NCBI RefSeq assembly: GCF_000702325.1
Contig: NZ_KL370891.1
Location: 1,941,306 to 2,005,305 of the forward strand
Direction of reading: 5' to 3'
Length of the DNA stretch: 64,000 nt
DNA from: Thiomicrorhabdus sp. Milos-T2
Lineage (GTDB): Bacteria; Pseudomonadota; Gammaproteobacteria; Thiomicrospirales; Thiomicrospiraceae
Position numbers and translations under genes: made by a program. Below are positions 47,713-55,425 of the stretch, piece after piece. The notes under the pieces were generated by a model. That model did no database searches. It was not told where the DNA came from and saw nothing but the letters and a program-made list of their open reading frames with translations. The number at the start of each line of letters is the position of its first letter. The first letter of the stretch is position 1.

Positions 47713-48561
47713 TCAAACAAATCGTACCGCTTTAAAAAAACGTGCTTGGGCTAATAACACTTGGTCCATCGTATTACCGACAATGGCAACAACACCGCCT
47801 TTCACGGGAATCATCTCTCCATGATAACCACTTTTTTGAAAAGCCTCCATTGCCGCTAATTTCTGTCCTGGCATCACAATCACCGTAACAGGGTTTCCTG
47901 AATCTTGTAGAACAATATGCAAGCCTTGTTGACCTTCTACATCACAAATACCGGCATAACTCATGCCTTCTACGGGTTTATTAAGCTGAGCACCTACACT
48001 GGCAAATAGTTGATTTAGCTCTTGATTAGTTTTGGGAAGTTTTACCGCTGTCATTAAGGTTGGGTCTTCCTGAATATGCGCCAAAATATGATTAATGGTA
48101 TCTTCACCAGAAATAGCATGTGGCGCATTTGGGTTTTGCCAAACGCTAAAGAGTATTGCAAAACCTAATAGGCTAGCAGCAATGCCTCCTAATCGACCTA
48201 ATTGGCCTAATGCCCCAATACTTCCTAAGCCCGTCAACCTAAATAAATGAGTAAACCAAGGCCCTTTCACCACATTATTATCTTCAATAATTTCAAGTTC
48301 ATCAGTCGTCCCCATTTCATTATTATTTTTAGAATCAGCAACCGATTCCGCTTGTTGCTGGTAACTCTGCTTTAATAAGATTCGGGCATGCAAACCCTCT
48401 GGGACATCTACATCTAAAGCATCTGAAATGTGTTGGTCAAACTCACGTGTTTTTTGAACCAATGTTTTTTTATCTGGGTTCTGTTCTAAAAATGTCAGCA
48501 TCTCATCATCTAACTGGTGAGGGTGCATCAGTAGCTTGCTACGAAAAGTCATTTCATTCAT
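47713..48561 (-). CDS. DUF3379-family protein, probable anti-sigma factor
   Basis: 282 residues. The cytoplasmic N-terminal ~115 residues (LMHPHQLDDEMLTFLEQNPDKKTLVQKTREFDQHISDALDVDVP) match DUF3379. One membrane segment (about 138-155, GGIAASLLGFAILFSVW) is followed by a periplasmic domain with FASVGAQLNKPVEGMSYAGICDVEGQQGLHIVL. DUF3379 proteins are encoded next to ECF sigma factors and are inferred to restrain them. Its start overlaps the sigma gene's end by 4 bp. Confidence 0.82.
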   Translation of the reverse strand: MNEMTFRSKLLMHPHQLDDEMLTFLEQNPDKKTLVQKTREFDQHISDALDVDVPEGLHARILLKQSYQQQAESVADSKNNNEMGTTDELEIIEDNNVVKGPWFTHLFRLTGLGSIGALGQLGRLGGIAASLLGFAILFSVWQNPNAPHAISGEDTINHILAHIQEDPTLMTAVKLPKTNQELNQLFASVGAQLNKPVEGMSYAGICDVEGQQGLHIVLQDSGNPVTVIVMPGQKLAAMEAFQKSGYHGEMIPVKGGVVAIVGNTMDQVLLAQARFFKAVRFV

Positions 48562-49091
48562 TGTTTTGCTCCCTCCGGCTTAGTGTTGAAATTAATTGAT
48601 TCGTTTTCATCATTCATAATCTGTTTAAGTTGCTGTCTTGCTCTAAAAAGGCGGGTGTTTACCGTAGCTAACTTTAAGCCCAACTCAGCAGCAATTTCTT
48701 CACCGCTAAATCCCCACATAATTTGTAAGATTAGCGGTTCTTTGTATTCATCTTCTAAGGTCAACATTATTTGGTGTAACTGCTGTTTTTCTAGTTTATG
48801 ACTAGGTTCATTATGGTAGTCATCCGCCACTAAACTCTCTTCTATTTCTAGCAATTGTGGTTGGTATTTCTCATATAAACGCGCATTTTCTCTGCGTAAA
48901 ATAGTAATTAACCAGGCTTTTGCGGCATTTTCATCTTTGAGTTTATCAATGGATTTCCAAGCACGCGCAAAAGTCTCTTGCACCAAGTCTTCCGCTAAAG
49001 GCGGTTGCTTACATAACCAGTAGGCATAACGATATAAGTCATTAGCGTACGCGGATACAAGCTGTTCAAAAAAACGCTGCTTATTCTGCAT
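48558..49091 (-). CDS. ECF RNA polymerase sigma factor
   Basis: 177 residues. Region 2 is LYRYAYWLCKQPPLAEDLVQETFARAWKSIDKL and region 4 is LEDEYKEPLILQIMWGFSGEEIAAELGLKLATVNTRLFRARQQL. No region 3 or 1.1, as in group 4 sigma factors. It lies upstream of and overlaps the DUF3379 partner, so the two form a sigma/anti-sigma unit; the signal is unknown. Confidence 0.92.
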   Translation of the reverse strand: MQNKQRFFEQLVSAYANDLYRYAYWLCKQPPLAEDLVQETFARAWKSIDKLKDENAAKAWLITILRRENARLYEKYQPQLLEIEESLVADDYHNEPSHKLEKQQLHQIMLTLEDEYKEPLILQIMWGFSGEEIAAELGLKLATVNTRLFRARQQLKQIMNDENESINFNTKPEGAKQ

Positions 49092-51743: not shown

Positions 51744-52732
51744 TTGGATTGACCTGTTGTCACTTCAGATTTAATTGCTGTGGATTGAATATTTTCTTGG
51801 TCATGAATGGTTTTATTTTCCTTAATCTGCCATTTAAGTAACGTCACCACTACCGCACCATTCCAAATCACAATAAACCAAACTAGGTATAGCCAAAGAA
51901 GAAATAACGGTACGGCAGCAAAGGCACCGTAAACAACCGCATAAGTTGGGAACCATTCAACATACAAGGCAAATCCAGATTTTAATAACTCAAGTTCAAG
52001 CATGGCAAATAAACCACTCATTAAAGCGATTTTAAACGGTACCTTAGCTACCGGAACTAATTTATAAAGTGCAGTAAACCCTAACCAGGCCAAAATTAAA
52101 GGAACTATCTTCATGCCTGAGGTAATTTTATCAATCAACGGCGTTGTCTCTACAATCAACGGCAAGGCCAATAGAGATGAACTTAACACTAAACTCATAC
52201 CCAAAAAAAGTGGCCCAAGTAAGCTAATGCCTAAATAATGTAATAAACTCACCCACCATCTTCGCTGCAAACGTTCTGACCAAAGTCCGTTTAATTTTTG
52301 GTCAACCTTCCATAACAACATCAAAGTGGTAAACAACATAACAACCAGGCCTGGTCCTTTTAAACTGGCGGCTTGCTGAGAAAACTTAAAAAGATACTCT
52401 TGAATCACAGGCTGCGAGTTCGGCATCAAGTTACGCACAACCTGCTCCATCACCAAACTTTCAAATGAAGAAAAATAAGGCGATACCGAAAACAATCCCA
52501 ACATAACCGCTAACATCGGAACAATGCCCACTAACGAGGTATAAGCCAAAATGGCAACGGCATCAGAACCTTGTCGAAGTTTAAAATTCAGAAACACTTG
52601 CTTCCAAAATGGCCAACTTGCAACCTGTTTAAGTAATCTCAATAGTGTTAAAGGGTTGGATTTTAATAAAGGGGTTGACGCTAATTTTGATTCAAGCGGT
52701 GGTTCAACGTGAGAATGCAAAGGTAACTCCAA
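51740..52732 (-). CDS. YihY/BrkB-family inner-membrane protein
   Basis: 330 residues with six membrane segments. The family stretch SDAVAILAYTSLVGIVPMLAVMLGLFSV (about 56-83) and PTYAVVYGAFAAVPLFLLWLYLVWFIVIWNGAVV near the C-terminus mark the YihY (formerly RNase BN) family; the function is not established. The TTG at 52732 is the only start in phase. It is translationally coupled to the ABC permease, which is unusual company. The palindrome at 52344-52355 encodes PGLV. Confidence 0.85.
   Translation of the reverse strand: MELPLHSHVEPPLESKLASTPLLKSNPLTLLRLLKQVASWPFWKQVFLNFKLRQGSDAVAILAYTSLVGIVPMLAVMLGLFSVSPYFSSFESLVMEQVVRNLMPNSQPVIQEYLFKFSQQAASLKGPGLVVMLFTTLMLLWKVDQKLNGLWSERLQRRWWVSLLHYLGISLLGPLFLGMSLVLSSSLLALPLIVETTPLIDKITSGMKIVPLILAWLGFTALYKLVPVAKVPFKIALMSGLFAMLELELLKSGFALYVEWFPTYAVVYGAFAAVPLFLLWLYLVWFIVIWNGAVVVTLLKWQIKENKTIHDQENIQSTAIKSEVTTGQSK
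52344..52355. repeat. Iterated palindrome ACCAGGCCTGGT (copy 14)
   Basis: Perfect copy inside the yihY-like gene, read as PGLV. Confidence 0.9.
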
Positions 52733-52927: not shown

Positions 52928-53791
52928 TTAAGCTGCCTTAACAACTCCCAAACCTTGTAATTTTTGTAAGGTTTGAACCGCGAACTCGGTTAACTCTTCA
53001 AGCTTAATCTGCTTACTCGCTAACAAAGGTTCACTAATAGCCAAAAGAGAATCATAAGCAGAAACGCCCGATTTAAAAGACAACAGCCATTGATAAAGCA
53101 ATGGGGTTAAGACCATAAAATCAATACGTTCTTGCTCAGAGTTTTCACTGTAAACCAATAACGTTGTCGCTTGATTAGGTTTGGTTTTTGGTTGATTCTC
53201 TTCAGATAATTGATGAACCGGCCACTCATACGCTAATAACCAAGCTACAGGAGAAATTTCATATTCCAGCTGTAAATCAATTTCAGATTGATTATCGCTA
53301 TCAAAACCTTGCTCTTCAGAAACCCCTAAAGCTAATTCAACCCACTCATAGTGAGCTAGCTCTAACAAAAATTCAGGATCATTCTCTAAAGGGGTATACT
53401 CCGTTTGCAGAAAGTCTAAAAACTCCTCGCCCAACTCATGAAATAACGGGGTTTGAGCCTTATGTTTCGCCATATATTCTCGCACCAATAAAAGCCAGCG
53501 CGACTCACCTAAAATTTCATTACACACCGGAAACAATTGACTAAAAAAATCTTGAAGATTATTAAAAAACAACTCTTCGTAAATTTTTAAACGGCGGGCT
53601 TCAATGGGTTTTTCGGTCTCTGGCTGATAATTAAATTGTTGCGGATTACGAATATGAGCCGTAAATTGCAGTTGTAATTGCTGAAAATAAGGTAAGCTCT
53701 CTAAATCACCCAACTCCGCAAAAGCTTCTGACAAAGCGACCAGGCCTGGTAGTCTTTTAGAATGCGTTGATTTATTTAAATCAGCTCCCAT
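52928..53791 (-). CDS. hvfC: HvfC-family RiPP maturation partner (DUF2063)
   Basis: About 287 residues from ATG 53791, which overlaps hvfB by 11 bp; a start at 53833 would overlap by 53. The DUF2063 domain is seen as LQLQFTAHIRNPQQF..IEARRLKIYEELFFNNLQDFFSQLFPVCNEIL and HELGEEFLDFLQTEYTPLENDPEFLLELAHYEWVELAL. HvfC-type proteins pair with DUF692 enzymes and help bind the precursor peptide. Older annotation as 'putative DNA-binding' is misleading. The palindrome at 53739-53750 lies in the N-terminal tail, encoding PGLV. Confidence 0.88.
   Translation of the reverse strand: MGADLNKSTHSKRLPGLVALSEAFAELGDLESLPYFQQLQLQFTAHIRNPQQFNYQPETEKPIEARRLKIYEELFFNNLQDFFSQLFPVCNEILGESRWLLLVREYMAKHKAQTPLFHELGEEFLDFLQTEYTPLENDPEFLLELAHYEWVELALGVSEEQGFDSDNQSEIDLQLEYEISPVAWLLAYEWPVHQLSEENQPKTKPNQATTLLVYSENSEQERIDFMVLTPLLYQWLLSFKSGVSAYDSLLAISEPLLASKQIKLEELTEFAVQTLQKLQGLGVVKAA
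53739..53750. repeat. Iterated palindrome ACCAGGCCTGGT (copy 16)
   Basis: Perfect copy inside hvfC, read as PGLV near the N-terminus. Confidence 0.9.
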
Positions 53792-54638
53792 GATTCGCTC
53801 TCCAAGCCGTTTGATAGGCACGAATTTGTTCAACTTCCTTTAGCAACTCTTCCATTGGCGGAATATTAAAATCACGTTCCAATAAAGTCGGAACCAATCC
53901 ATGGTATTGATAGGTTTGCTCTAACAGCTCCCAGACAGCTTCTTTTACAGGCTGCCCATGGGTATCAACTTTTAAATCATCCGCTTCATCAAAATGCCCT
54001 GCCATATGAAAATAAGCCATACGTTTTGTAGGCATGGACTGCATATAATCCTGTGCATTATATTTATGATTAATTGCATTCACATAGGTATTATTGACAT
54101 CAAATAACAGTTCGCAATCGGCTTCTTGCAATACCGCATTAACAAACGCTTGTTCACTCATTTGACTGGTGGGCAGGGCATAAAAAGAGACATTTTCTAT
54201 ACCAATTTTTTGTTCAAGAATATCCTGTACACGTTGAATTCTTTGCGCAACATACTTAACCGCTTCTTCGGTAAATGGAATTGGCATTAAATCATATAAA
54301 TGACCGCTATCACCGCAATAACTTAAGTGTTCGGTATAAGCACGAATTTGATGGGTTTTAAAAAAGTCTTTAAGCTGAAATAAATAGTTTTCATCTAAAG
54401 GCTTAATACCACCTAAATCAAGAGACAAACCATGACAAACAAAAGGAAAACGCTCCGTGAGCGTGCGCAATTTTTTACCCTGTCCGCCACCAAAATGTAA
54501 CCAATTTTCAGGAGCAATCTCCATAAAATCGACGGCAAAATCTGGCGTATTTAACACTTCATCAAAAAAGCTTCTGCGTAACCCTAAGCCAACGCCTTCA
54601 ACGGCATATTTTTGTGAACTCATTTTTGGCTCTCTCAT
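53781..54638 (-). CDS. hvfB: HvfB-family MNIO peptide-modifying enzyme (DUF692)
   Basis: 285 residues, a TIM-barrel multinuclear non-haem iron oxidase. The family pattern is visible: VGLGLRRSFFDEVL, VDFMEIAPENW, VCHGLSLDLGG, YTEHLSYCG, ENVSFYA, LLFDVNNTYVNAINH and YFHMAGHFDE..VDTHGQPV, which supply the His/Asp/Glu iron ligands. Relatives (MbnB, TglH, HvfB) modify cysteine residues of peptides; HvfB converts EGKCG cysteines to copper-binding oxazolone/thioamide groups with HvfC. It lies downstream of the EGKCG-rich precursor and overlaps hvfC. A start at 54623 (MSSQK) is an alternative. Confidence 0.93.
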   Translation of the reverse strand: MREPKMSSQKYAVEGVGLGLRRSFFDEVLNTPDFAVDFMEIAPENWLHFGGGQGKKLRTLTERFPFVCHGLSLDLGGIKPLDENYLFQLKDFFKTHQIRAYTEHLSYCGDSGHLYDLMPIPFTEEAVKYVAQRIQRVQDILEQKIGIENVSFYALPTSQMSEQAFVNAVLQEADCELLFDVNNTYVNAINHKYNAQDYMQSMPTKRMAYFHMAGHFDEADDLKVDTHGQPVKEAVWELLEQTYQYHGLVPTLLERDFNIPPMEELLKEVEQIRAYQTAWRANHGS

Positions 54639-54695
54639 TTAGAGGACTTTACACGAGAGGAGTGCAAAGTTTTCTTTTAAACACATTTTAAAATA

Positions 54696-54707
54696 ACCAG
54701 GCCTGGT
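54696..54707. repeat. Iterated palindrome ACCAGGCCTGGT (copy 17)
   Basis: Perfect intergenic copy between hvfA and hvfB. Confidence 0.9.
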
Positions 54708-54777
54708 TGATTTGAAATGAACTGATCATTTTAAAAAAATGCTCACATTTATAGCGGTTTAAGAATTTTAATAAAAT

Positions 54778-54805
54778 AAAGCACACAAATTTGATTGTGT
54801 GCTTT
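54778..54805 (-). terminator. Hairpin between hvfA and hvfB
   Basis: AAAGCACACAA / TTGTGTGCTTT stem-loop followed by U-rich sequence on the minus strand. A partial terminator here would make precursor transcript exceed enzyme transcript. Confidence 0.8.
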
Positions 54806-54877
54806 ATGCATTGCAAGGTTTAAGGGTTTACAATGCTTTATTTCTAATAGATAAAACCCTAATGAGCAGGTAAATAA

Positions 54878-55279
54878 TTAGCTTGGTTTCGCACCACATT
54901 TACCTTCACCGCACTTGCCTTCCTTTTTCTTGCCGCCACTTTTACCTTCCATCTTCATGCCGCCGCATTTGCCTTCCATCTTCTTGCCACCGCATTTACC
55001 TTCCATCTTCTTGCCACCGCATTTACCTTCCATCTTCTTACCACCGCACTTACCTTCCATCTTCTTGCCACCGCACTTACCTTCCATCTTCTTGCCACCG
55101 CACTTACCTTCGGCATCAGATTTGGAACCACCACATTTACCTTCCATTGCCACTTGTGAGTAGCCTGACTCCATCTCTTTAAAGCCAAATGGATTCTCAG
55201 CAGCAGAAGCAACGCCGGTTACCGATACCATTGCTGCGCCAGCTAATTTTAAAAAATCTCTACGTGAATTCGTTTTCAT
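54878..55279 (-). CDS. hvfA: HvfA-like RiPP precursor with EGKCG repeats and Tat signal
   Basis: 133 residues from ATG 55279, which has GGAG upstream; a longer start adds an unlikely tail. The N-terminus is a twin-arginine signal, SRRDFLK, then LAGAAMVSVTGVASA with a cleavage site before AENPF. The mature part has ENPFGFKEMESGYSQVAMEG, as in HvfA/bufferin-like precursors, then nine EGKCG motifs and one EGKSG, mostly as a 9-residue unit EGKCGGKKM. EGKCG cysteines are the known substrates of HvfB. The product is probably a copper-binding, modified peptide exported to the periplasm. A 240-bp gap with a hairpin separates it from hvfBC. Confidence 0.9.
   Translation of the reverse strand: MKTNSRRDFLKLAGAAMVSVTGVASAAENPFGFKEMESGYSQVAMEGKCGGSKSDAEGKCGGKKMEGKCGGKKMEGKCGGKKMEGKCGGKKMEGKCGGKKMEGKCGGMKMEGKSGGKKKEGKCGEGKCGAKPS
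54942..55112. repeat. 27-bp tandem repeats inside hvfA
   Basis: About six near-identical copies of a 27-bp unit encode EGKCGGKKM. Third-base differences (T/C in the Cys codon, A/G in Lys) show some age. Confidence 0.88.
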
Positions 55280-55425
55280 GACTAATCTCCGATTTCTATT
55301 TTTAATAAGAATTTGTAATCCTTGCAATAAATAAGACCTGCAAAAAATTTATTTATTTCAATTAATAAATTTTTTTAAGTTTGATTATAGATGAAAACAG
55401 AAAAAGTGAGGTGAGGATTAAAAAA

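Follow-up and report, generated by a model that had tools for sequence, protein, structure and literature searches.

Does the precursor peptide of an HvfABC-type cluster whose signal is of twin-arginine (Tat) type leave the cytoplasm by the Tat pathway, and what would this say about the order of modification and export? The question is raised by a stretch of 64,000 nucleotides, referred to here as the window, from the sulphur-oxidising bacterium Thiomicrorhabdus sp. Milos-T2. Published work describes Sec export for precursors of this kind, their Sec signal doubling as the leader peptide (PMC12452194, PMC13419390), and a 2025 survey lists how premature Sec export before modification is avoided as an open question (PMC12452194). 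A lineage in which the same precursor has moved to Tat, together with its Sec-type relatives, makes that question directly testable. We consider it likely, with a probability of about 0.77, that the locus is an HvfA-type (oxazolin/fontiphorin-like) thiooxazole metallophore cluster in which the Sec signal has been exchanged for a Tat signal and whose product buffers periplasmic copper.

The hvfABC locus

The three genes lie on the minus strand in the order hvfA, hvfB, hvfC, with hvfB and hvfC overlapping. The precursor gene hvfA (54878..55279) codes for 133 amino acids that score 24.5 bits against the NCBIfam HvfA domain model NF050137 (cut-off 19.5), and hvfB (53781..54638) for an MNIO-type peptide maturase of 285 amino acids (NF003818, 424 bits, cut-off 360; PF05114, 342 bits, with a match spanning the full length). 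The partner gene hvfC (52928..53833) codes for a DUF2063 domain and an RRE-like C-terminal domain (NF050145, 221 bits, cut-off 142; PF09836; PF22106). The locus is thus an HvfABC-type cluster, a known RiPP system, and the family models bear out the first-pass annotation, made from the sequence alone, which had recognised such a cluster from nine EGKCG motifs followed by hvfB and hvfC on the same strand. The strict equivalog model NF050188 (cut-off 95 bits) gives no match to the window HvfA at E 0.001 and only 26.9 bits for one Tat-type relative, far under its cut-off; it is a narrow HvfA equivalog, and the wider EGKCG family falls outside its naming.

The start of hvfA is the ATG at 55279, which has a GGAG ribosome site and is the Met at which the alignment of relatives begins; a TTG at 55327, giving a longer reading frame, finds no support among relatives. 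For hvfB, an alternative ATG at 54623 would give 280 amino acids, and for hvfC the ATG at 53791 is more likely than the TTG at 53833. HvfA contains nine cysteines in nine EGKCG motifs, plus one EGKSG in which a cysteine has been lost. In the DNA they correspond to a tandem repeat with a unit of 27 bp, so that a motif recurs every nine residues, where the repeat unit described for the family has 17 residues with two motifs (PMC12452194). A terminator-like stem-loop with a T-rich tail (54776..54807, minus strand; 13-bp stem, fold z-score -3.7) occupies the gap between hvfA and hvfB, and may result in more hvfA than hvfBC transcript. A scan for sigma-70 promoters yielded matches no more numerous than in shuffled sequences. 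The predicted structure of HvfC, which is of good confidence, has matches in NGO1945 (3DEE) and in the TglHI/MbnC partners; nothing in this model suggests a partner protein different from the HvfC type.

The window has 17 copies of the palindrome ACCAGGCCTGGT (e.g. at 52344, 52864, 53739 and 54696) and the genome 498, against 0 for a reversed control. Two other members of the genus have 454 and 399 copies and several others 0-2, which makes it a highly iterated palindrome in some members of the genus.

The signal peptide of HvfA

The signal MKTNSRRDFLKLAGAAMVSVTGVASA (55202..55279, minus strand) contains the motif SRRDFLK, which the first-pass annotation had read as a strong Tat motif. The curated Tat model TIGR01409 agrees, at 20.6 bits against a cut-off of 16.7, while the Pfam Tat model PF10518 reaches 16.2, under its cut-off of 22.7. 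The n-region, the moderately hydrophobic h-region and the A-x-A fit the Tat pattern S/T-R-R-x-F-L-K, and the probable cut site, read by eye, lies before AENPF (A-x-A). A Sec signal is the usual, though perhaps not the defining, trait of HvfABC/oxazolin-type RiPPs; the window HvfA has a Tat-type signal instead. Across the whole genome of the window, TIGR01409 exceeds its cut-off at four sites only, HvfA being one of these, and tatA, tatB and tatC are found in one operon (TatC identified by Pfam, TatA and TatB from sequence and position). At the level of sequence, assignment of the HvfA signal to the Tat type is well supported. Some RR signals are able to use Sec too.

Distribution of the Tat-type signal

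That a Tat signal is unusual in this family had been proposed at the outset, with a comparison of signals across HvfA homologues as the check. The comparison upholds it: TIGR01409 matches 31 of 32 Tat-type HvfAs from the order to which the window's genome belongs, and 0 of 101 other HvfAs, nearly all of them from other Gammaproteobacteria and spread across the class, in agreement with the published statements of Sec export (PMC12452194, PMC13419390). By the rule of three, which ignores relatedness, the true share of Tat-model matches elsewhere is probably below 3 percent. A rule-based Tat check gives a similar division (29 of 30 Tat-type sequences, 1 of 101 others). One HvfA (L051, MSRRSTLKP) has the RR and no TIGR01409 match, and two signals that read SKQNRRDFLK (L148 and L149) are counted as Tat-type in the tree described below.

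Within the window's genus, every readable hvfB-linked HvfA has the pattern (T/S)RR(D/N)FL(K/R)LAG, and the same RR signal pattern recurs in relatives from no fewer than three other genera of the order; carriers of Tat-type HvfA are found in Thiomicrorhabdus (T. arctica, T. chilensis), Hydrogenovibrio (H. halophilus and others) and one Thiomicrospira strain. R-R-x-F is invariant across the 32 aligned Tat-type sequences while the codons of the invariant Arg vary at both positions (CGT, AGA, CGA, CGC), which argues that the motif is not due to chance. The Tat-type signals are also less hydrophobic than those of other HvfAs (mean best 12-residue Kyte-Doolittle value 1.59 versus 2.02; Mann-Whitney p 2e-10, which is optimistic since the sequences are related), and Gly is commoner in them. 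A profile of the Tat-type sequences, searched against 369 genomes of the class, recovered HvfAs in many, and nearly all its alignments outside the order begin downstream of the RR columns. These computations show a signal of predicted Tat type that is conserved in, and restricted to, the order. We found no report of Tat-exported MNIO precursors in the literature; the RiPP system itself is known, and the lineage-wide Tat variant of HvfA is new.

Evolution of the signal switch

In a phylogeny of 109 HvfB sequences, the 27 from the order form one group (support 100/100) on a long stem. Twenty-six of these are associated with a Tat-type HvfA and one, from Sulfurivirga (G795), with a Sec-type HvfA. 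Two label changes are enough to explain the tree, and a single Tat clade is not rejected (p-AU 0.43). The topology thus fits a single switch from Sec to Tat, with the Sec-type Sulfurivirga placed beside or inside the group. The part of the precursor behind the signal (NPF...GY...EGKCG) can be aligned between Tat-type and Sec-type HvfAs, with a profile-profile probability of 99.6 and with NPF and GY in register; in the window this shared NPF...GY portion is the segment ENPFGFKEMESGYSQ directly behind the signal (55154..55198, minus strand). We therefore conclude that the signal changed and the remainder stayed. Moreover, three genomes of the genus with a Tat-type HvfA have Bufferin-1 (BufA1) precursors of Sec type, so the change concerns HvfA and not secretion by the whole cell; a genome-wide drift to Tat is ruled out by these BufA1 signals together with the mere four Tat-model sites in the window's genome.

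HvfA-like proteins are also found apart from a maturase. Genomes G022 and G031 (L159 and L160) code for a Tat-type EGKCG-like protein, MNTRRGFIRQLAA, in which TRRGFI is kept, and no MNIO gene was found in either genome. The same search found none in G005 and G030, where the HvfA-like protein is Sec-type (L162 and L157). As Tat-type relatives exist without an MNIO gene, Tat is not strictly tied to modification. In Thiomicrorhabdus sp. ZW0627, two short tandem HvfA-like precursors precede hvfB (L165, 1411 and 1849, minus strand; L200), the first with a degenerate TRRGFM and few motifs.

Gene neighbourhood and copper

In five genomes (G021, G026, G781, G793 and G805), genes resembling cusB, cusA and cusC share the strand of the Tat-type hvfA and lie directly ahead of it or adjoin it, in the order cusB-cusA-cusC-hvfA(BC) (L280, 3264-9526; L281, 7927-14165; L288; L291; L293), and in three of the five hvfA is followed by hvfBC. 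At L209 and L213, hvfBC comes directly after cusA or cusAC, and hvfA was not found in the stretches analysed. The CusA of these relatives scores far above the cut-off of TIGR00914 (CusA/CzcA). The adaptor resembles CusB and falls below the CusB cut-off, so that copper or silver is likely rather than shown. Linkage to cusBAC in several relatives supports a copper role for Tat-type HvfA, and the cusBAC-hvf order connects peptides of this class with metal efflux pumps of a known type, a link not found in the literature searched. The CusB-like adaptor of G793 (L293, 8246-9562), which adjoins the Tat-type hvfA, has its own start with a Tat-like RRQFLR.

In the window, no copper gene adjoins the cluster, and inspection from 40 to 60 kb showed no DoxX gene (hvfX); in G788 and G789, hvfA adjoins a DoxX-like gene and the MNIO gene is elsewhere in the genome. 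The cluster is flanked by a diguanylate cyclase gene before it and by genes for YihY, a FecCD-type ABC transporter and an ECF sigma factor after it, and these flanks recur in G029. The ECF sigma factor and a likely anti-sigma partner (47713-49091) are near the cluster, in a neighbourhood that G029 shares. ECF control is known for some bufferin genes.

Modification and export

HvfBC converts the cysteines of HvfA to 5-thiooxazoles (PMC13419390, PMC13097082), and works best on the full-length precursor including the signal peptide (PMC13419390). Given the gene identities, the Tat-type signal, tatABC and the cusBAC linkage in relatives, all established by computation, the exchange of Sec for Tat can be set out as a pathway. 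Most likely, HvfC and HvfB would recognise the signal/leader region of the precursor while it is still in the cytoplasm, and would turn the cysteines of its EGKCG motifs into 5-thiooxazoles; the Tat signal would thus serve both as leader and for export. The finished peptide would then exit through TatABC, signal peptidase would cut after ASA to give a product of 107 residues, and this product may buffer copper in the periplasm, in some relatives beside a CusBAC pump. The first-pass annotation had taken EGKCG to be the substrate of HvfB/HvfC and the groups installed to be oxazolone/thioamide, a chemistry since reassigned to 5-thiooxazole (PMC13097082, PMC13419390). It had also argued from Tat to modification before export; that order is likely, but Tat is not evidence for it, since Sec-type members are thought to be modified in the cytoplasm too (PMC12452194).

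Dedicated chaperones hold the signals of Tat redox enzymes. A tentative extension of the pathway is that Tat serves as a checkpoint, HvfC/HvfB holding the signal until the thiooxazoles are made, and that the released peptide, perhaps loaded with copper, passes this copper on to a CusBAC pump whose genes share the operon in some relatives.

In a stronger version of the main explanation, which does not exclude it, Tat would carry HvfA out already folded around copper acquired in the cytoplasm, as suggested for the copper storage protein Csp1. Tat signals are present in Csp1/Csp2 and in a gonococcal Csp, and cytosolic loading has been proposed (PMC5171941, PMC12510493), and the Tat-type relatives that have no MNIO gene are in line with this. 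However, AlphaFold predicts HvfA to be disordered (mean pLDDT 47, on an alignment that is shallow and repetitive), with no fold beyond the signal helix and hence no four-helix bundle with Cys in its core as in Csp proteins; this disorder, predicted for the unmodified peptide, includes the mature part of 107 amino acids. Tat accepts short cargo of this kind, passing some 100-120 unstructured hydrophilic residues (PMC6708511). Tat targeting is therefore no proof of folding or metal-loading, and we consider copper-folded export rather unlikely. The suggestion that HvfA is exported metal-loaded, made in the initial reading of the locus, loses its footing for the same reasons, and because Tat-type proteins persist in G022 and G031.

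It is also conceivable that HvfA, its RR notwithstanding, is in practice exported by Sec or by both routes and so resembles its counterparts in other bacteria. The h-region has kept a moderate hydrophobicity, the c-region is without a Sec-avoiding positive charge, and Sec export is what published HvfA/bufferin work shows (PMC12452194). Against this stand an R-R-x-F that is invariant across at least four genera while its Arg codons vary, signals with lower hydrophobicity and more Gly than in Sec-type relatives, and the near-complete separation by the Tat model (31/32 versus 0/101), all of which make export by Sec, alone or alongside Tat, improbable. Signal peptides do act as leaders in HvfA and bufferin (PMC13419390 and Junger 2026 cited there), but retention of RRDFLKLAG solely as a leader for HvfC/HvfB is very improbable, given that the motif reproduces the complete Tat consensus S/T-R-R-x-F-L-K, that the HvfA-like proteins of G022 and G031 retain TRRGFI in genomes with no detected MNIO gene, and that leaders of Sec type fulfil this role with no RR.

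Comparison with known systems

Among the closest described systems, HvfA/oxazolin of Haemophilus influenzae (HvfABCX) has the same EGKCG precursor, HvfB MNIO and HvfC partner in the order ABC. The window differs from it in having a Tat-type rather than a Sec-type signal, single-motif repeats of nine residues, and no hvfX seen adjoining the cluster. Fontiphorin (FonA, Fontimonas thermophila) likewise has EGKCG repeats that an MNIO and a DUF2063 partner convert to thiooxazoles (PMC13097082), and bulbicupramide (MmrA, Microbulbifer) derives from an EGKCG precursor and is reported to bind copper (PMC12538549); unlike for the window HvfA, a Tat signal is not mentioned in either paper (PMC13097082, PMC12538549). 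Bufferins (BufA1/BufA2) are also MNIO-modified, exported by means of a signal peptide and involved in copper buffering, but belong to other precursor families and have Sec-type signals, in Thiomicrorhabdus as well. Csp1, like HvfA, is a Cys-rich copper sponge with a predicted Tat signal (PMC5171941), yet it forms a four-helix bundle with plain thiols and involves no MNIO. Csp1-type proteins offer a precedent for Cys-rich copper carriers with Tat-type signals (PMC5171941, PMC12510493).
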